Under the pieces are notes generated by a model. The model made no database searches and was not told where the DNA came from. It saw only the letters and a program-made list of their open reading frames with translations. Shown piece after piece: positions 4,556 through 33,545 of a stretch of DNA of 43,087 nucleotides. Source of the stretch: Flavobacteria bacterium RIFCSPLOWO2_12_FULL_35_11 (GTDB lineage: Bacteria > Bacteroidota > Bacteroidia > Flavobacteriales > Flavobacteriaceae); the NCBI GenBank assembly GCA_001800975.1, contig MGWK01000094.1, positions 12,431-55,517 of the forward strand, written 5' to 3'. Positions within the stretch are counted from its first letter, which is position 1. Every line of letters starts with the position of its first letter. The position numbers and the translations under genes were made by a program.

Positions 4556-6658
4556 ATGAAAATATACGATGACAAACACATTAAAAATGTTGCTTTTGTT
4601 GGTGCCCATAAAAGTGGTAAAACAACATTGGCCGAAACCATGCTCTTCGAAGCCGGATTAGTCAGCCGCCGTGGTAGTGTTGAGAATAAAAACACGATTT
4701 CCGACTACCACGCGATTGAACATGAAAGAGAAACTTCCGTTTTTGCCACACCCCTACACACCGAATGGCGCAACTACAAAATAAACATTATTGACACTCC
4801 CGGATTGGATGATTACATTGGTGAAATTGCCTCTACAATGCACGTAACCGACTCAGTTGCTATGATCATAAATGCACAATATGGTGTTGAAGTTGGCACA
4901 GAAATTATATGGGATTATATAGACCGATTTTCGCGCCCAACCTTATTTGTAATCAATCAAATAGACCATCCAAGCGCCGATTTTGACGAAAGCTATAAAA
5001 GCATTGTTGAATTGGTGGGTAAAAATGTGGTTAAAATGCAATATCCGCTTAAAGTTAATGGCGCACAATGCATTATTGATGTGCTTAAAATGAAAATGTA
5101 CAAATTTGGACCGCAAGGAGGAAAACCGGAAAAATTAGAAATTCCAAAAGATCAAATTGAACATGCAACAGAACTTCAAAATGAATTAATTGAAAAAGCT
5201 GCTGAAAACGATGAAAATTTAATGGAACTTTATTTTGATAAAGGCACCCTTAATGAAGATGAAATGCGTGAAGGAATTAAAAAAGGGATGCTTAATCATG
5301 AATTATTCCCTGTATTTTGCATTTCGGCTTTAAATGATATGGGCACCGGACGTTTAATGGGATTTATTGACAATGTTGCCCCATCTGCAGCCGATTTAAA
5401 ACCTGAACAAAGTGTTGAAGGAACCACAGTTGAATGTAAAGTTAATGCACCAACCGTACTTTTTGTTTTTAAAACTGTTTATGAACCTAACTTGGGACAA
5501 ATTAGTTTCTTCAAAGTAAAATCAGGAGAAATTAAGCAAAATGACAAGTTGGAAAATTCCAGAAACGGTGAAATTGAAATCGTAAACCAGCTATATATTA
5601 TGGATGGCAAAAATCGGGAACTGGTTGAAAAATTAAGTGCCGGCGATATTGGAGCCACTTTAAAATTAAAGTTTACGGAAACAAACGACACACTAAGAAC
5701 AAAGGGTTCAAATATTACCATAAAACCAATTGTTTATCCCGAAACAAGAATTACCAAAGCGGTAAGGGCTTTTGATAAAAATGATGATGAAAAACTAAAT
5801 GAAGCGCTTAAAAAAATACATAGCCAGGATCCAACCGTTAGCGTTAAGTATTCATCGGAGTTAAAACAACTCATTTTATCTTGTCAAGGGGAATTGCATT
5901 TAGCGACAATTGACTGGATTTTGCAAAACACTTATGGCATAAAAGCAGTTTTTGAACAACCAAGAATTGCCTATAGAGAAACCATACAGCGATCTGCGAC
6001 AACTAGTTACAAACATAAAAAGCAATCGGGAGGTTCAGGACAATTTGGGGAGGTTCACATTAAAATTGAACCTTGGTACGAAGGAATTCCGGAACCGGAA
6101 GGATTTAACATCAGAGGAAAAGAGGAAGTAAATCTGGATTGGGGCGGAAAATTAATATTCTACAACTGTATTGTTGGCGGTGTAATTGATGCGCGCTATT
6201 TGCCTTCTGTTTTAAAAGGAATTTTAGAAGTGATGGAAGAAGGTCCTTTAACCGGTTCCTACGCCAGAGATGTTCGGGTGATGCTTTTCGACGGCAGAAT
6301 GCACCCTGTAGATTCAAATGATATTTCATTTAAAATTGCCGGAGCGCATGCTTTTAAAGAAGCCTTTTTAAATGCCAAACCTAAATTATTGGAACCAATT
6401 CATGAAATTTCCGTAAAAGTTCCTGAAGAATTAATGGGGAACGTAATGACCGATTTACAATCGCGCAGATCTGTAATTCTTGGAATGGACAGTGAGGGTA
6501 AATATCAAACAATTAAGGCCAAAACACCTTTGGCAGAAATGTATAAATACTCAACAACATTGCGTTCAATAACGCAAGGCCGTGGAAGTTTTAGCACTAA
6601 ATTTTCAAATTTTGAATTGGTGCCTAACAACGTTCAAGAAGAATTGGTTAAAAAATAA
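4556..6658 (+). CDS. Elongation factor G paralogue (EF-G2-like)
   Basis: A 700-residue translational GTPase with all EF-G domains: G domain (about 1-280), domain II (about 290-390), III (about 405-480), IV and V. P-loop is GAHKSGKTT (G1), G3 is DTPG (80-83) and G4 is NQID. The residue after DTPG, normally the catalytic histidine (DTPGH), is L84, and the switch I region reads ERETSVF, not the usual ERGITI. A histidine at the domain IV tip (RMHPVDSND) is kept. It is thus an EF-G paralogue, not the housekeeping FusA. The closest characterised case known to me is Bacteroides thetaiotaomicron EF-G2, reported to support translation without GTP hydrolysis; the L84 change fits such behaviour (inference). 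It is monocistronic, with its own terminator just downstream. Confidence 0.93.
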   Translation: MKIYDDKHIKNVAFVGAHKSGKTTLAETMLFEAGLVSRRGSVENKNTISDYHAIEHERETSVFATPLHTEWRNYKINIIDTPGLDDYIGEIASTMHVTDSVAMIINAQYGVEVGTEIIWDYIDRFSRPTLFVINQIDHPSADFDESYKSIVELVGKNVVKMQYPLKVNGAQCIIDVLKMKMYKFGPQGGKPEKLEIPKDQIEHATELQNELIEKAAENDENLMELYFDKGTLNEDEMREGIKKGMLNHELFPVFCISALNDMGTGRLMGFIDNVAPSAADLKPEQSVEGTTVECKVNAPTVLFVFKTVYEPNLGQISFFKVKSGEIKQNDKLENSRNGEIEIVNQLYIMDGKNRELVEKLSAGDIGATLKLKFTETNDTLRTKGSNITIKPIVYPETRITKAVRAFDKNDDEKLNEALKKIHSQDPTVSVKYSSELKQLILSCQGELHLATIDWILQNTYGIKAVFEQPRIAYRETIQRSATTSYKHKKQSGGSGQFGEVHIKIEPWYEGIPEPEGFNIRGKEEVNLDWGGKLIFYNCIVGGVIDARYLPSVLKGILEVMEEGPLTGSYARDVRVMLFDGRMHPVDSNDISFKIAGAHAFKEAFLNAKPKLLEPIHEISVKVPEELMGNVMTDLQSRRSVILGMDSEGKYQTIKAKTPLAEMYKYSTTLRSITQGRGSFSTKFSNFELVPNNVQEELVKK

Positions 6659-6676
6659 AGCCTAATTATAAAAATT

Positions 6677-6713
6677 AAAGACTCGTCTATTAAATAAATG
6701 GACGAGTCTTTTT
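6677..6713 (+). terminator. Intrinsic terminator after the EF-G paralogue
   Basis: An 11-bp perfect stem (AAAGACTCGTC / GACGAGTCTTT) with a 13-nt loop ends in a T run, 19 nt after the stop codon. Confidence 0.9.
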
Positions 6714-6972
6714 GTTAAATGCCAATTAATATTCATTAATTCAATTAATTTTTATAATTCTTAAAGTTTTTAGATGGTTATTAAACGATAAATTTTAAAA
6801 AAAATTAAATATTAATTGATTGCCAATATAATAATATTTTCCTTTAAAAAAAAGAATTATCATTAATTTTTGGTATTTTATTCATGTACAATTCGTTTAA
6901 AGATGAATTTCATTGTGATATGTTCAATAAAAAAATATATAATTGATTATTTCTTCATCGCTGATAAATCTG
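6714..6972. other. AT-rich intergenic stretch
   Basis: Very AT-rich sequence between the EF-G terminator and the next promoter. No open reading frame, repeat or RNA structure was recognised. Confidence 0.6.
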
Positions 6973-6980
6973 TATCTTTG
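6973..6980 (+). promoter_or_regulatory. -7 box (TATCTTTG) for the small Cys-rich protein gene
   Basis: TATCTTTG followed by CAAC lies 17 nt before the ATG at 6998. No good TTG -33 element at the usual spacing; the nearest is too far upstream. Confidence 0.65.
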
Positions 6981-6997
6981 CAACTTAATATACTTTA

Positions 6998-7192
6998 ATG
7001 AAACTAATTCTTATTACAATTGGCCTTTTAGCGCTTGGCGTTGCTGGAATAGCAATTAAAATTTGGGCTAAAAAAGACGGAAAATTTGCAGGAACTTGCG
7101 CAAGTCAAAATCCACATTTAAATAAAGAAGGAGTTGCCTGTGGATACTGCGGAAGATTGCCTGATCAATGTGAAAACCAAGAAAATAAATAA
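6998..7192 (+). CDS. Small Cys-rich membrane-anchored protein
   Basis: A 64-residue protein: one N-terminal membrane helix (about 2-22), then a lysine-rich stretch and four cysteines in the order GTC, ACGYC, QC (segment 33-59). Similar short proteins are annotated only as membrane or secreted protein in Bacteroidota. The layout of one helix plus a four-Cys tail resembles NqrM, the Na+-NQR maturation factor, but that is a visual resemblance; no nqr or apbE gene is nearby. It has its own promoter and is followed after 3 nt by the glycosyltransferase gene, so the two are probably cotranscribed. Confidence 0.8.
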   Translation: MKLILITIGLLALGVAGIAIKIWAKKDGKFAGTCASQNPHLNKEGVACGYCGRLPDQCENQENK

Positions 7193-7195
7193 GAA

Positions 7196-8305
7196 ATGCT
7201 CGAATATCTATTTATTGCTTTTATAGTAATTTTTTGTATTCAGTTTATTTATTACATTTTCATTTTTGGCTCTTTTTCTTTTTCTAAAAAAAAATCAACC
7301 GAAAATAACTTCAATTTACCGGTTTCAGTTATTATTTGCGCAAAAAATGAGGCGAAAAATTTAACTGAAATTCTTCCCAATTTCTTAAACCAAAATTACA
7401 AAAACTTCGAACTGGTTTTAATTAATGATCGTTCACGCGACCAAACATTAAAGGTGATGGAGAAGTTTAAAAAAGATTCCCCAATTTCCATAAAAATTGT
7501 GGATGTAGCCGTGAATGAACAATTTTGGGGAAGTAAAAAATATGCGCTTACCTTAGGCATTAAAGCTGCTTCTCATGAACATTTATTGTTTACTGATGCC
7601 GATTGTATTCCTGTTTCAGAAAGCTGGATAACCGAAATGGTCAATAATTTCAACAATGAACATCAAATTGTATTGGGTTATGGCGCCTATAAAAAAATAA
7701 AAAAATCATGGCTCAATAAACTTATTCGGTTTGAAAGCCTTTTAACTGCCATCCAATATTTTAGTTATGCAAAAATTGGAATTCCTTATATGGGTGTTGG
7801 CCGTAATTTAGCCTATACAAAAACGGTTTTTTTCAAGGTTAACGGATTCGCAAATCATATGCATATCAAATCGGGCGATGATGATTTGTTTATAAACCAA
7901 GTGGCTACAAAGCAAAATACGGCCATTTCTTGTTCACAAGACAGCTTTACCGAATCGTTTCCAAAAACAACCTTTAAAGATTGGATTCATCAAAAAAGAA
8001 GACATATTTCAACGGCTTCTTTATACAAACCTGGGCATAAATTTTTATTGGGACTTTTTTTCAGCTCCCAATTGTTATTTTGGATTTTAGGCATCATTGT
8101 TTTAAGTTTCCTTTATAACTGGCAAATAGTTGCAGGTTTAATTTTTACAAGAATCTTATTTTTGTATTTGGTAATTGGCTACTCCGCAAAAAAATTAAAT
8201 GAAAGAGATTTAATCCTCTTTATTCCATTTTTTGAAATATTTTTAATTTTGATACAAATGTTTATCTTTATAAAAAATATGATTTCAAAACCTACACATT
8301 GGTAA
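7196..8305 (+). CDS. Family 2 glycosyltransferase, membrane-bound
   Basis: This 369-residue protein starts with a membrane helix (about 3-28), followed by a GT-A domain: VSVIICAKNEAKNL nucleotide-binding start, NDRSRDQT, the metal-binding DADC motif, a GDDDLF acceptor/catalytic region and a QKRRH motif typical of processive-type GT2 enzymes. The C-terminus has two to three membrane helices (about 280-365). It would transfer a sugar from an NDP-sugar to a lipid or glycan on the inner face of the membrane; the substrate is not predictable. Its end overlaps the sigma factor gene by 7 nt, suggesting translational coupling. Confidence 0.9.
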   Translation: MLEYLFIAFIVIFCIQFIYYIFIFGSFSFSKKKSTENNFNLPVSVIICAKNEAKNLTEILPNFLNQNYKNFELVLINDRSRDQTLKVMEKFKKDSPISIKIVDVAVNEQFWGSKKYALTLGIKAASHEHLLFTDADCIPVSESWITEMVNNFNNEHQIVLGYGAYKKIKKSWLNKLIRFESLLTAIQYFSYAKIGIPYMGVGRNLAYTKTVFFKVNGFANHMHIKSGDDDLFINQVATKQNTAISCSQDSFTESFPKTTFKDWIHQKRRHISTASLYKPGHKFLLGLFFSSQLLFWILGIIVLSFLYNWQIVAGLIFTRILFLYLVIGYSAKKLNERDLILFIPFFEIFLILIQMFIFIKNMISKPTHW

Positions 8306-29034: not shown

Positions 29035-30111
29035 TTACTTCACGTTGTGCTGAATATTGATGGATTCCACGTGAATGGCTTTAAATATTTCTTCAATAAA
29101 TTCTTTGTTAAGTCCTTTTTCCTCCGCGGCTTCACCGATGGTTGCCAAAATATCGGCCCATCTGCTGCTTTGTAAAATAGCCACATTTTCTTTGTGTTTC
29201 AGCAAGCCTATTTGCTCTGATATGCCCATTCTGTCTTTCAACAAATCAATTAAATTGCTGTCGAGCAAATCCAATTCTTTACGGTACATAGTCAATTTTC
29301 GCTGGAATTCCTCTTTGCTGCTGCTTTTCAGACGGATTTTTAAATCGGAGGTCATTTGCGCCAATTGTGCAGGCGTGATTTGTTGTTTGGCATCGCTCCA
29401 GGCATTGTCCGGATCGATATGGGTTTCAATCATAAATCCGTCGTAGTTTAAATCGAGGGCCGTTTGCGAAACATCCAACAGCGTGTCCCTTCTTCCGCAG
29501 ATATGAGATGGATCAATGATTAATGGCAAATTAGGGAACTCTTTTTGCAGCTCTATCGCCAAATGCCATTTCGGTTTGTTGCGGTAATGCAAAGAATTGT
29601 AGGTTGAAAACCCTCTGTGGATCACGCCCAGCTGGGAAATTCCCGCTGCTTGAAAACGTTCCACGGCACCCAACCACAAAGGCAAATCGGGATTTACGGG
29701 ATTTTTCACCAATACCGGTATGTTAACCCCTTTCAAAGCATCGGCAATTTCCTGCACCACAAAAGGATTCACCGTTGTTCTGGCACCTATCCACAAAATA
29801 TCGATACCGTGTTTTAGCGCAAGTTCAACGTGATTTGCATTTCCCACTTCGGTAGTCACCAACATTCCAGTTTCTTTTTTCACACGCTGCAGCCAAGGCA
29901 ATCCTATTTCTCCGACACCTTCAAAGCCGCCCGGACGCGTTCTTGGTTTCCAAATACCTGCGCGGTACACGTTTGCATCTGTATTTTTAAGCAAGTGCGC
30001 TGTTTTCATTACCTGATCTTCCGTTTCCGCACTGCAAGGTCCTGCGATTACAATTGGGTGCGATAAATTCATATCATCCAACCACTTTCTGTTTTCTTTC
30101 GTAATTTCCAT
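29035..30111 (-). CDS. Bifunctional DAHP synthase / chorismate mutase
   Basis: A 358-residue fusion. Residues 1-260 form a type I-beta DAHP synthase (condensing phosphoenolpyruvate with erythrose 4-phosphate): AGPCSAET, YRAGIWKPRTRPGGFEGVG, LWIGARTTVNPF, KNPVNPD, GVIHRGFSTY and IIDPSHICGRRD. Residues about 270-355 form an AroQ chorismate mutase helix bundle (YRKELDLLDSNLIDLLKDRMGISEQIGLLKHKEN). The fusion gives both the first step of the shikimate pathway and the branch to prephenate in one protein, and such fusions are commonly inhibited by prephenate or chorismate. It is the last gene of the four-gene minus-strand Phe/Tyr operon. Confidence 0.95.
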   Translation of the reverse strand: MEITKENRKWLDDMNLSHPIVIAGPCSAETEDQVMKTAHLLKNTDANVYRAGIWKPRTRPGGFEGVGEIGLPWLQRVKKETGMLVTTEVGNANHVELALKHGIDILWIGARTTVNPFVVQEIADALKGVNIPVLVKNPVNPDLPLWLGAVERFQAAGISQLGVIHRGFSTYNSLHYRNKPKWHLAIELQKEFPNLPLIIDPSHICGRRDTLLDVSQTALDLNYDGFMIETHIDPDNAWSDAKQQITPAQLAQMTSDLKIRLKSSSKEEFQRKLTMYRKELDLLDSNLIDLLKDRMGISEQIGLLKHKENVAILQSSRWADILATIGEAAEEKGLNKEFIEEIFKAIHVESINIQHNVK

Positions 30112-30133: not shown

Positions 30134-30982
30134 CTATTTAATTCCGTTCAATATTGTTTTGATGTAATTTGTGTTGTTCATTGTTCTGTTTAATCCGTCC
30201 TCATCATCGTGCTCAATCATTTCTTTAAATTCATTCAGGTTTTTGATATATTCCTCCAAAGATCTCACCACATTTTCTTTATTCTGAAGAAAAATTGGGG
30301 TCCACGTGCTCGAGGAGCTTTTTGCCAAACGCACTGTTGAAGCAAAACCGGTGCTTGCCATATCAAAGATATACTGCTCGTTTTTTTCAATTTCCAAGAC
30401 TGTTTTTCCCAACATAAATGAACTCACATGCGACAGGTGCGACACATAGGCAATGTGCCTGTCGTGTTCTTCCGGGTTCATCATTTTGATGCGCATATTC
30501 AGTTTTTTAAACAAGCTTAACGCTTTGTCCAGCATTTGCCAGCCACACTTTTCGGTTTCGCAAAGAATGGCCACTTTATGGTCGAACAAGTCCAAAATGG
30601 CCGCTTCAGGTCCCGAGAATTCCGTCCCTGCCAGCGGGTGTGCCGCCACAAAATTTTTGCGGTTTGGGTGATGCTGTATTGCCTTGCAAATTTCATTTTT
30701 AACGGAGCCCACGTCAAAAACCAAGGTATCTCCTGAAACCAAATCCAACACTTTCAAGGTCACCTCCGGAATTTTATTCACCGGAACCGCAATCACCACC
30801 ACCGAAGCATCTGACAGTTGGGAAAAATCAATTTCTTCCTCAATAATGCCAAGCGCCAACGCTTTTTTGATATGTTCGGGATTCTGGTCAATTCCGTAAA
30901 CTATATAGCCTTCCCTTTTCTTCAAATCGAGCGCCAAGGAACCGCCAATTAAACCCAAACCAATCACCACTAATTTTTCCAT
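30134..30982 (-). CDS. tyrA: Prephenate dehydrogenase
   Basis: A 282-residue NAD(P)-dependent enzyme that converts prephenate to 4-hydroxyphenylpyruvate for tyrosine. Dinucleotide motif GLGLIGGSLALDL, catalytic histidine region AHPLAGTEFSGP, and the second conserved histidine segment AYVSHLSHVSSFML. No ACT domain is attached, so feedback control by tyrosine, if any, uses another site. It lies 3 nt after the aminotransferase gene and 22 nt before the DAHP synthase gene. Confidence 0.94.
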   Translation of the reverse strand: MEKLVVIGLGLIGGSLALDLKKREGYIVYGIDQNPEHIKKALALGIIEEEIDFSQLSDASVVVIAVPVNKIPEVTLKVLDLVSGDTLVFDVGSVKNEICKAIQHHPNRKNFVAAHPLAGTEFSGPEAAILDLFDHKVAILCETEKCGWQMLDKALSLFKKLNMRIKMMNPEEHDRHIAYVSHLSHVSSFMLGKTVLEIEKNEQYIFDMASTGFASTVRLAKSSSSTWTPIFLQNKENVVRSLEEYIKNLNEFKEMIEHDDEDGLNRTMNNTNYIKTILNGIK

Positions 30983-30985
30983 TTC

Positions 30986-32143
30986 TTAAATTTCTACAGT
31001 CGATAATCTGTTTAACACTTCTTTCAATACGGCTTCCGAAACACATAAGGAAGCGCGGATATAGCCTTCTCCATTGGAGCCAAAAATATTTCCGGGGGTA
31101 ATGAACACGTCATTTTCGTACAGTAACTTGTCGGTAAATGCTGCCGAATTTATACCTTCGGGCAATTTTGCCCAAACAAACAATCCGCCGTAATTTTTAT
31201 TATAAGTACAGCCTAACGCATCAAAAATTTCCCGCACGGCTACCTGTCTTTTTTTATAGGTTTCATTTTGTTGCAGAAACCAATCTCCCGACAATTTTAA
31301 GGCTTCCACCGCCCCTTTCTGAATTCCGAAAAACATCCCCGAATCCATATTGCTTTTCACTTCCAAAATTGTTTTAATAATTTCGGCATCGCCCACCACC
31401 ATGCCAACGCGCCATCCGGCCATATTAAAGGTTTTGCTCAATGAATTCAGCTCAATGGCCACTTCTTTTGCGCCTTCCGTTTCCATAATGCTTATCGGAT
31501 TGTCGTTCAGCACAAAAGAGTACGGATTGTCGTTTACGATTAATATATTGTGCTTTTTTGCAAAAGCTACCAATTGTTCAAAATCGGCTTTGGAAGCCAC
31601 CGCCCCGGTTGGCATATGCGGATAATTTACCCACATAATTTTTACCTTGGTTAAGTCCTGTTTTTCAATTTCGGCAAAATTAGGCAACCAGTTTGTCTCC
31701 TGTCTCAGTGCATAAAAAACGGGTTCCGCTTCCAACAATCTTGTGACAGATTCGTAGGTAGGATAGCCCGGATTTGGAATCAACACTTGATCGCCTGCAT
31801 TCAAAAAAGCCATAGATATGTGCATGATGCCTTCTTTTGATCCCATCAAAGGCAAAATTTCATTGGTAGGATTTAATGATACATTGAAATTGGTCTTGTA
31901 AAAGTTTGCCATCCCTTCGCGCAATTCAGGGATGCCCTGATAACTTTGATATTGGTGCGCTGTTGGCAGTTCCATCGCATTTTTCATGGCTTCAACCACG
32001 CTTATGGGTGGATTTAAATCGGGGCTTCCGATGGCCAGGTTGATAATTGGTTTCCCTGCATTCCGTAAAGCGGCCACTTCCCTTAACTTTTTAGAGAAGT
32101 AGTATTCCTTTACGTCCTTTAATCTGTTTGCTTTTGGTATCAT
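30986..32143 (-). CDS. Class I/II aminotransferase (aromatic/aspartate-type)
   Basis: A 385-residue PLP aminotransferase. INLAIGSPDLNPP is near the N-terminus, and the PLP lysine is in LNSLSKTFNMAGWRVGM. The conserved YPHMPTGAVA and C-terminal GEGYIRASLCVSE (substrate-carboxylate arginine) are in place. Its position between pheA and tyrA indicates that it transaminates phenylpyruvate and 4-hydroxyphenylpyruvate, or prephenate (inference). Its ATG overlaps the pheA stop by one base (TAATG). Confidence 0.93.
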   Translation of the reverse strand: MIPKANRLKDVKEYYFSKKLREVAALRNAGKPIINLAIGSPDLNPPISVVEAMKNAMELPTAHQYQSYQGIPELREGMANFYKTNFNVSLNPTNEILPLMGSKEGIMHISMAFLNAGDQVLIPNPGYPTYESVTRLLEAEPVFYALRQETNWLPNFAEIEKQDLTKVKIMWVNYPHMPTGAVASKADFEQLVAFAKKHNILIVNDNPYSFVLNDNPISIMETEGAKEVAIELNSLSKTFNMAGWRVGMVVGDAEIIKTILEVKSNMDSGMFFGIQKGAVEALKLSGDWFLQQNETYKKRQVAVREIFDALGCTYNKNYGGLFVWAKLPEGINSAAFTDKLLYENDVFITPGNIFGSNGEGYIRASLCVSEAVLKEVLNRLSTVEI

Positions 32144-32961
32144 TATCGTTTGCTTTTGCTGTATTCGCCCAACACTTTTAAGGCTTCCGTTTTTTCTTTC
32201 ACTTCTTTGATGGCATTGAAATAATCGGCATAACTGTCAAAAATAAAATCGGCGAAAAACGCATATTTCCAAGGCGTTTCAATCACGGGCATCGATTGTA
32301 TTTTAGAAAGGTTCAGGTTGTGCTTTGCCAAAATGGTCAACACTTCAGCCAAACTGCCGGTATCATTGCTTGTGATAAATTTAATGGACGCCTTATTTGC
32401 CGAAACACTTTTTTTACTTTCCGCATTGGTCAGAATAAAAAATCGGGTTGCATTGTCTTTGATGGTCTGTATTTCCGGCGCAATGATTTCCAGCTGGTAG
32501 ATTTCCGCTGCCAAACTGCCGGCAATCGCCGCAACACCCATAAGTTTTTGGTCCTGAATTCTTTTGGCCACCGCTGCGGTATCCTTGTCTTCGATTAATT
32601 TTATGTGGGGATAGTCATTAAAAAATTTATGGCATTGCAACAAGGCCATCGGATGTGAATATACTTCTTTGATGTCCTCAATTTTTTGTCCGCCCAAAGC
32701 CATTAAATTGTGGTGAATGGGCAAATAATGCTCCCCACAGATGGTTAATTTATGGTCGTCTATCAACGCATAATTTGGCAAAATGGCTCCTGCTATGGAG
32801 TTTTCGATGGCCATCACAATCACTTCCGCTTTTTTGTTGTGCAGTAAATCGGGCATTTCACCGAACGACATACACTCGACCAAGTCGATATTTTTTCCAA
32901 AATATTCCTCGGCCACTATGTGGTGAAATGATCCTTTAATTCCCTGTATCGCTACCTTCAT
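32143..32961 (-). CDS. pheA: Prephenate dehydratase
   Basis: A 272-residue enzyme that makes phenylpyruvate from prephenate. The start is MKVAIQGIKGSFHHIVAEEYFG and the catalytic threonine lies in NATRFFIL. A C-terminal ACT domain (about 190-265) has TGSLAEVLTILAKHNLNLSKIQSMP, equivalent to the GALV and ESRP regions that bind phenylalanine in other dehydratases. There is no fused chorismate mutase; that activity sits on the DAHP synthase. It is the first structural gene of the operon, behind the attenuator leader at 33061-33218. Confidence 0.95.
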   Translation of the reverse strand: MKVAIQGIKGSFHHIVAEEYFGKNIDLVECMSFGEMPDLLHNKKAEVIVMAIENSIAGAILPNYALIDDHKLTICGEHYLPIHHNLMALGGQKIEDIKEVYSHPMALLQCHKFFNDYPHIKLIEDKDTAAVAKRIQDQKLMGVAAIAGSLAAEIYQLEIIAPEIQTIKDNATRFFILTNAESKKSVSANKASIKFITSNDTGSLAEVLTILAKHNLNLSKIQSMPVIETPWKYAFFADFIFDSYADYFNAIKEVKEKTEALKVLGEYSKSKR

Positions 32962-33061
32962 CTGTTATTATTATTTGTTTTTATTTGGTCCTCTGGAATG
33001 CGCATTTATTCATTCGTTTTTACATCGTGAAATAGTTATACGCAGTTCATCATTTTTGGTC

Positions 33062-33090
33062 AAAAAAAAAGCCTCGAAATTTTTCGAGAC
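33062..33090 (-). terminator. Attenuator terminator before the Phe/Tyr operon
   Basis: On the minus strand, GTCTCGAAA and TTTCGAGGC pair (one G-U) around a two-base AA gap, and nine U follow at once. It lies about 100 nt before the pheA ATG and after the leader peptide, so it would end transcription before the structural genes. Confidence 0.88.
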
Positions 33091-33133
33091 CCTTATTATT
33101 TATTTTTGTTAAAATAACACATACGAAGCCTCA
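33085..33133 (-). promoter_or_regulatory. Possible antiterminator pairing in the Phe/Tyr leader
   Basis: Minus-strand UGAGGCUU (33133-33126), which begins at the leader stop codon, can pair with GGGUCUCG (33092-33085), the 5' arm of the terminator, in eight base pairs including G-U pairs. A separate 9-bp pairing links leader codons 3-6 (33185-33177) with GTGTTATTT (33120-33112). These alternative pairings are what a ribosome-controlled switch needs. Confidence 0.6.
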
Positions 33134-33193
33134 TCTCTTATTGCTAAAATAAAAGTAAAAATAAAAGCTGTTCCAAGTGTTATTTGTCATCAT
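33131..33193 (-). CDS. Phe/Tyr operon leader peptide
   Basis: A 20-codon frame, MMTNNTWNSFYFYFYFSNKR, then TGA. It contains four Phe and three Tyr codons in an unbroken alternating run (residues 10-16) and one Trp. It begins about 18 nt after the -7 box and ends just before the terminator hairpin. A ribosome short of Phe-tRNA or Tyr-tRNA would stall in the run, leaving the UGAGGCUU segment free; a ribosome reaching the stop would cover it. The peptide itself likely has no function once made. It is too short for ordinary gene finders. Confidence 0.85.
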   Translation of the reverse strand: MMTNNTWNSFYFYFYFSNKR

Positions 33194-33210
33194 CTATGTT
33201 TTGTAAGGCG

Positions 33211-33218
33211 CAAATCTA
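33211..33218 (-). promoter_or_regulatory. -7 box (TAGATTTG) for the Phe/Tyr operon
   Basis: Minus-strand TAGATTTG followed by CGCC, 17 nt before the first ATG of the leader peptide. A -33 TTG is not clear. Confidence 0.65.
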
Positions 33219-33545
33219 ACTAATAAATCTAAAAAACCATCATTTTTTTGGCTAAAAAAAATGACTATTACCAAAATCGCAATAAAATTGGCCAATAAAT
33301 ATCATATTCATAAATCAACTATCATAAATTAGCCAAATTTTGACATTTATAACTTTATTTTATGATAATAATTCAATAAAAAGGGTAAAGAATAAAAGAT
33401 AGACAATAAGAATCATAGTGATAGCTTAGAGACCCTCTGATTCAGAAGTTGAAAGTATAAAGGCAAAAAGCAATTGATATTTTATAATCTTATTAGTTCA
33501 ACAATTACCCAATTAAACAGGAATAGGTCCAACGAAAAATTAAAC
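33219..33545. other. AT-rich divergent intergenic region
   Basis: Separates the Phe/Tyr operon promoter from the Wzi-like gene promoter. No gene or repeat was recognised. Confidence 0.5.

Follow-up and report, generated by a model that had tools for sequence, protein, structure and literature searches.

Introduction

Leader-peptide attenuation is a classical kind of regulation. In the enterobacterial pheA leader, a peptide rich in the cognate residue, an intrinsic terminator and an alternative antiterminator stand before pheA, and multivalent leaders that sense more than one amino acid are known as well (ilvGMEDA, thrABC). A comparative study of attenuation by Lopatovskaya et al. in 2010 may have predicted related cases.

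For the flavobacteria, a 2021 account of Flavobacterium psychrophilum gives strong indications that leader-peptide attenuation acts before operons for amino-acid biosynthesis (PMC9723704). The same account states that the structured 5′ elements of pheA and hisG occur in other genera of the Flavobacteriaceae, and that the pheA element is without Rfam hits (PMC9723704). For that element, the portions of the article cited here name neither a leader peptide nor its codons, and they offer no pairing scheme, no covariation and no occurrence outside the family (PMC9723704). A further feature of relevance is that Bacteroidia ribosomes are reported to fail to recognize Shine-Dalgarno sequences (PMC9976891).

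The locus studied here lies on the minus strand of a 43,087-nucleotide stretch of DNA from Flavobacteria bacterium RIFCSPLOWO2_12_FULL_35_11, the whole of which we call the window. It resembles the trp, his, ilv and thr leader attenuators in its four-segment logic but differs from them in its Phe plus Tyr signal pair and in its occurrence in Bacteroidia, which we take to be the class of these loci from Lutibacter and the taxonomy. The enterobacterial Phe_leader family (RF01859) gives a sub-threshold match at 33062-33181 (25.9 bits, E 0.015), compared with a gathering cut-off of 55 bits, so that the locus is not a member by that test. In contrast to the RF01859 leader, each of the 141 runs compared here contains codons for Phe as well as for Tyr, and the locus heads a four-gene Phe plus Tyr operon, in another phylum and with another promoter type. 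With the F. psychrophilum pheA element, as far as it is described, it shares the gene and the family (PMC9723704). In our literature search, outside which most subscription papers lay, we found no description of the Phe plus Tyr pair, of covariation or of a class-wide range. The preliminary description of this DNA, which knew of no described case in the flavobacteria, was too strong on that point in view of the leader-peptide attenuation reported for F. psychrophilum (PMC9723704).

We propose, with a probability of about 0.92, that the sequence before pheA controls the Phe/Tyr operon by ribosome-mediated transcription attenuation. As judged by comparing genomes, what is new here, and well supported, is the Phe plus Tyr pair, the covariation and the class-wide range; the kind of regulation itself and flavobacterial amino-acid attenuation were already known.

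Results

Layout of the pheA leader region

The elements of the leader and the operon are collected in Table 1. The preliminary description had proposed a −7 box, a 20-codon frame with seven alternating Phe/Tyr codons, a terminator hairpin with nine U, and the gene order pheA, aminotransferase, tyrA and DAHP synthase/chorismate mutase. All of these are present as described, the four genes being identified by their domains, and its coordinates for TGAGGCTT at the leader stop (33133-33126), for the terminator arm and for the complementarity of leader codons 3-6 to 33120-33112 are likewise correct.

Table 1. Features of the predicted attenuator and of the operon behind it, in window positions.
Feature	Position	Strand	Basis
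−7 promoter box TAGATTTG, presumably of TAnnTTTG type	33211..33218	-	read from sequence
Leader peptide frame MMTNNTWNSFYFYFYFSNKR, 20 codons, TGA at 33133-33131 within region 2	33131..33193	-	sequence and counterparts in relatives
Regulatory codons FYFYFYF (TTT TAT TTT TAC TTT TAT TTT)	33146..33166	-	both Phe and Tyr codons in 141/141 runs
Region 1 AAATAACAC, codons 3-6, complementary to 33120-33112	33177..33185	-	comparative support weaker than for other stems
Region 1 partner GTGTTATTT, 3′ of region 2	33112..33120	-	folding and comparison
Region 2 UGAGGCUU, antiterminator 5′ strand, near-copy of terminator 3′ arm	33126..33133	-	pairing and covariation
Region 3, terminator 5′ arm, common to antiterminator and terminator	33083..33094	-	pairing and covariation
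Region 4, terminator 3′ arm	33067..33078	-	folding and covariation
Nine-T tract of terminator	33062..33070	-	read from sequence
pheA, prephenate dehydratase (PDT and ACT), operon gene 1	32143..32961	-	domain matches
Class I/II aminotransferase	30986..32143	-	domain match
tyrA, prephenate dehydrogenase (PDH)	30134..30982	-	domain matches
DAHP synthase fused to chorismate mutase	29035..30111	-	domain matches

The UGA of the leader is the start of region 2, and the intrinsic terminator, GGGTCTCGAAAAATTTCGAGGC followed by nine T ending at 33062, is located between the leader frame and pheA, the first structural gene. The closest relatives of the window PDT are Lutibacter records, which places the window almost certainly in that genus. 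The ACT domain of this PDT scores 27.9 bits with a cut-off of 27. The spacer from terminator to pheA is 100 nt (32962-33061). Its length differs strongly among close Lutibacter: from stem end to pheA there are 105 nt in the window, 21 in L002, 197 in L003 and 63 in L010. A Wzi-family capsule-assembly protein (PF14052; 33573-34955, plus strand) is divergent from the pheA leader.

We assume TAnnTTTG to be the consensus to which the box TAGATTTG belongs. A match to it at most 70 nt 5′ of the leader ATG was found at 85 of 141 loci, compared with 16 of 141 shuffled sequences (one shuffle each). A universal TAnnTTTG promoter was rejected, since the exact match is confined to those 85 loci. The position of the −7 box suggests that transcription probably starts ∼12 nt 5′ of the leader start codon.

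No Rfam family reached its cut-off in the window, and no T-box was present among 34 weak Rfam hits in 33040-33240; T-boxes and other Rfam families were rejected because none reaches the cut-off. These results bear on whether the region might instead hold another 5′ regulator, such as a T-box, a riboswitch or a protein-bound RNA. We found nothing in favour of such a regulator, no family comes near its cut-off in the leader, and the terminator and antiterminator are tied to the positions of the leader codons, all of which makes this explanation very improbable.

The Phe/Tyr leader and its terminator are conserved in the family

A run of seven consecutive Phe/Tyr codons occurs once in the window, where 0.01 would be expected. 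Genome-wide, however, the seven-codon TWY run is not rare (14 matches, compared with 23 for the reversed pattern), so the run by itself proves nothing. The window leader alone folds moderately better than shuffled sequences (z −1.60, equalled by 12 of 200). The case becomes much stronger when relatives are compared. At least five Phe/Tyr in eight codons, followed by a terminator before pheA, were found at 81 of 81 loci, comprising the window and 80 relatives kept of 117, many of them close, so that the effective number is lower. Among these loci are records of Lutibacter, Polaribacter, Tenacibaculum, Arenibacter, Maribacter, Algibacter, Flavivirga, Robertkochia and Flavobacterium. A Phe/Tyr leader and terminator before pheA were also present in 25 of 25 further genomes of the family, taken from 38 with a PDT and possibly overlapping in species with the 80 named loci; a 26th (L176) is positive too.

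With a stricter threshold of at least six Phe/Tyr in eight codons plus a terminator, 76 of 81 upstream regions scored, whereas the same criteria picked out 1 reverse complement in 81 and 2 dinucleotide shuffles in 243. Adding the region-2 match described below left 60 of 81 real regions and none of the 81 reverse complements or 243 shuffles. One might still hold that the hairpin is a plain terminator or the end of a small RNA, with a Phe/Tyr frame arising by chance in AT-rich DNA, and the frequency of TWY runs in the genome speaks for this. However, presence at 81 of 81 loci with these controls, the retention of the frame and of Phe/Tyr identity across families of differing sequence, and the region-2 match and covariation leave this reading with hardly any credibility. 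A chance origin of the run is thus rejected on conservation, even though such runs are not rare in the genome.

Outside the Phe/Tyr run the leader peptide drifts (MTKQYFWNGFYFYFFFKGG, MKNTFTFTSFFFFFYFFKRSETF, MSNNRFYFSNTFYFFFNKK, MLNNNFTRFYFYFYFFSKRRDFV), and the order and length of the run itself vary between families (FYFYFYF, YFYFFYFY, FFFFFYFY, FYYFGFYY). This pattern is relevant to the idea of a TnaC-like arrest of the nascent chain, in which free Phe or Tyr, not hungry codons, would be sensed. The conserved aromatic run is compatible with such an arrest, as is the likeness of the N-terminal leader residues within a genus (NTWNS, YFWNG). However, sequence-specific arrest peptides typically keep fixed residues, whereas here the flanking residues and the order and length of the run drift between families while the Phe/Tyr codons remain. 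We consider nascent-chain arrest improbable for this reason, and favour codon-dependent stalling of the ribosome. The outcome in relatives is the one that the preliminary description had named as support: Phe/Tyr codons kept, the remaining peptide drifting, and terminator and antiterminator stems that covary.

Both amino acids are represented in every leader of the set

For comparisons across the class we used a set of 141 loci. Entry depended on a terminator and on the combined density of Phe and Tyr codons, and was blind to region 2, to whether both residues occurred and to where the stop lay. Families f4 and f15 were excluded, and L172, L175 and L182 (genomes already included) and L176 (positive, and needlessly omitted) were left out. 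Both Phe and Tyr codons were present in 141 of 141 runs, with a mean of 4.2 Phe and 2.6 Tyr codons per run, and this pair fits an operon that makes both amino acids. The excess of Phe over Tyr codons could mean that mainly Phe is sensed and that the Tyr codons are secondary. Given that no run lacks either codon and that the operon makes both products, we regard a mainly Phe-directed switch as unlikely. The leader is probably one switch reading both end products; from the codons, each of the two would be sensed separately.

An alternative pairing covaries with the terminator

With partner starts searched from 5 nt upward, the sequence pairing best with the 5′ arm of the terminator begins 5-15 nt past the last Phe/Tyr codon at the 141 loci, and 9-12 nt past it at 104 of them. 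A high-scoring 5-nt match was found there at 109 of 141 loci. Control windows gave such a match in 3 of 138 cases upstream and in 0 of 138 downstream, and shuffled sequences did so in 251 of 2820. When arms were exchanged between dissimilar loci, the score dropped in 842 of 904 exchanges (23 ties). Region 2 tracks the terminator as both change: GAGAC or GAGGC occurs with GUCUC in Lutibacter and Polaribacter, GGGAC or AGGAC with the arm GUCCU in Arenibacter, GGAGC with GUUCC in Maribacter, and AGGAU with AUCCU in Flavobacterium, while family f8 has GAGCGGUC with GACCGCUC and family f52 has GCCGGGACU with AGUCCCGGC (region 2 with terminator arm).

To score covariation we aligned 27 of the 81 loci, hand-picked for diversity, and used shuffles that ignore kinship, which inflates the scores. 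Both partners vary in 8 of the 12 terminator pairs, and the score was reached by 0 of 500 shuffles. Both partners also vary in 4 of the 9 antiterminator pairs (11 cells), where neither the score nor the number of cells was reached by any of 500 shuffles; the number of such pairs is unremarkable, since 81 of 500 shuffles reach it, as do most of the slid versions. Sliding the partners reduced the covariation score from 0.323 to at most 0.145 for the terminator and from 0.288 to at most 0.156 for the antiterminator. When the alignment is folded as a whole, the consensus shows the terminator alone, which is what competing structures would lead one to expect.

At single loci the signal of the pairing between regions 2 and 3 is weaker, with 99 of 141 loci reaching at most 1 in 40 shuffles; 22 of 141 are without five standard pairs in its core, and among the 27 loci of other orders there are 8 whose region-2 match does no better than shuffled sequence (p >0.05). 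Across the set, the comparisons show conservation of a predicted antiterminator that uses the terminator 5′ arm and would be mutually exclusive with the terminator. The preliminary description had proposed this pairing of the leader-stop sequence with the 5′ arm, and covariation now backs it.

Leader geometry and predicted folding states

The leader stop overlaps region 2 or is 3′ of it at 138 of 141 loci, so that a ribosome finishing the leader would cover region 2. Toeprint distances place the cover of a stalled ribosome at ∼10 nt beyond its codon, and a ribosome on the last Phe/Tyr codon would thus leave region 2 just free.

Three states were obtained by folding the window sequence: a leader hairpin holding region 2 (−15.7 kcal/mol), the antiterminator (−10.6 kcal/mol, for RNA from the stalled ribosome to the 5′ arm only) and the terminator (−12.7 kcal/mol), the antiterminator being the weaker of the latter two. 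In the register tested only 2 of 8 region-2 bases of the window antiterminator are paired, although the fold itself pairs GAGGCUU with the arm. The window fold also predicts a protector pairing of regions 1 and 2. In the comparison of this pairing among loci, a locus's own partner beat a swapped one in 666 of 931 cases (37 ties), and 36 of 141 loci reached at most 1 in 40 shuffles. The protector stem is therefore plausible but weakly supported.

Range of the attenuator and linkage to the operon

The attenuator extends beyond the flavobacterial setting given in the preliminary description, to several further families within the class. In the same order it was present in families f2 (2 of 2 loci), f3 (1 of 1), f8 (2 of 2) and f14 (3 of 3), and not found in f11 (0 of 1), giving 8 of 9. 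In other orders of the class, where 45 of 49 genomes with a PDT were examined, 27 of 45 loci passed the strict finder. Among the 18 that failed, 5 (L167, L189, L192, L194, L196) show a Phe/Tyr-rich leader by eye, and a terminator was seen in L189, L192 and L194 only. In L192 and L194 (family f30), the leaders (MKLTQTYFWFYP...) mix Tyr, Phe and Trp codons and are accompanied by a GC-rich terminator and a TACCTTTG box. Two of two extra loci of the class have the attenuator. It was not found at 29 loci of f4, at 7 of f26 or at 7 of f15, where one strict-finder match (L117) was judged to be chance.

In other classes of the phylum, with 46 of 95 genomes with a PDT examined, 2 of 46 loci passed the strict finder (L284 and L277). 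L277 was judged to be chance, its hairpin lying 466 nt before the PDT. The attenuator of L284 (f85) looks real and is the one convincing case outside the class. The L284 PDT begins VAIQG, resembling the type of the class, and another f85 locus, L252, begins VAFQG and is without attenuator; acquisition by horizontal transfer is possible.

Behind the PDT, the aminotransferase, PDH and DAHP synthase genes follow at 78 of 80 named loci. At all 22 f4 loci tested, and at all 28 tested from other classes, none of the three was found behind the PDT (E at most 1e-8, in the DNA examined), and those f4 loci are without the attenuator. As far as these predictions go, presence of the attenuator largely follows the operon. 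Exceptions are loci that keep the aminotransferase neighbour and have no attenuator (6 of 6 f15 loci tested, the f26 loci tested, L163, L165 and L166), and L173, which has the operon neighbours behind the PDT and no attenuator. The f15 loci L113, L115, L117-L119 and L121 come from reduced genomes of ∼0.6 Mb and have a PDT, then an aminotransferase, and no convincing attenuator. The f4 locus L149 (genus g56) does have a frame rich in Phe and Tyr, MDNSDFYTFRFYFQK, whose end is 315 nt away from the PDT; an AT-only hairpin lies behind it, no G+C terminator was called there, and the locus is uncounted. This frame is either a remnant or chance.

Companion leaders in the genus of the window

Leaders before other biosynthetic genes in the same genus were chosen as the frame richest in the expected residues, with no shuffled control, and on this basis hisG leaders (L211-L222) are His-rich (e.g. 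MTFIQLHHHHFHTGTQAS), ilvD leaders (L223-L234) Ile/Leu/Val-rich (e.g. MKKVILNIIAIRVSVIISQGG) and trpE leaders (L235-L246) Trp-rich (e.g. MNLKNTNTNWWWNSLNL). The leader is followed by a terminator in 10 of 10 hisG, 9 of 10 ilvD and 11 of 11 trpE loci examined, from 12 each; in the ilvD locus L223 the best terminator lies 5′ of the leader. A stretch able to pair with the terminator 5′ arm is present in the hisG, ilvD and trpE leaders, weakest for Trp (9, 8 and 11 loci; no control). The leader MKKVILNIIAIRVSVIISQGG (L226), with its terminator before ilvD, comes from the window's own genome (G000:C94, ilvD match at 6289-7242), on the same contig and ∼5 kb outside the window. HisG was unmatched in that genome and present in 12 of 12 congeners searched; its absence reflects either an assembly gap or loss.

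Discussion

Comparison among genomes establishes, at the level of sequence, the leader with its Phe and Tyr codons, the terminator, the alternative pairing of regions 2 and 3, the spacing and the linkage to the operon. With leader, terminator and alternative pairing all kept in relatives, the ribosome-mediated attenuator suggested in the preliminary description is very strongly supported by these comparisons as a reading of the locus.

In the mechanism that we envisage, a ribosome would translate the leader behind RNA polymerase. With ample Phe-tRNA and Tyr-tRNA it would get to the stop inside region 2 and cover that region, the terminator (regions 3 and 4) would form, and transcription would end near 33062. 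If Phe or Tyr were short, the ribosome would stall in the FYFYFYF run with its leading edge just short of region 2; region 2, being free, would pair with the terminator 5′ arm, and polymerase would continue into pheA and on through the aminotransferase, tyrA and DAHP synthase/chorismate mutase genes. Were the leader not translated, region 1 and the leader codons would hold region 2, and termination would be the default. We infer translation of the leader, stalling, sensing of both amino acids and read-through on starvation from this arrangement.

It is fairly likely that the dual Phe plus Tyr attenuator is the ancestral control of the aromatic operon in Bacteroidia, and that it belongs to a set of such leaders in the genus of the window, with members for Phe/Tyr, His, Ile/Leu/Val and Trp. 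The locus suggests how the Phe/Tyr operon is regulated in a large class in which, in the literature that we found, attenuation is little described. It also suggests annotation rules for more such leaders, namely a Phe/Tyr run, region 2 ∼9-12 nt later and a matching terminator; no Rfam model detects this leader at its cut-off. If the dual attenuator is indeed the ancestral control, ribosome-mediated attenuation, with tight coupling between the leading ribosome and RNA polymerase, would be a general strategy in Bacteroidia, and such coupling would hold in a class whose ribosomes ignore Shine-Dalgarno sequences and with leaders that start only ∼12 nt from the predicted 5′ end. The attenuator offers a ready test of transcription-translation coupling in Bacteroidia.
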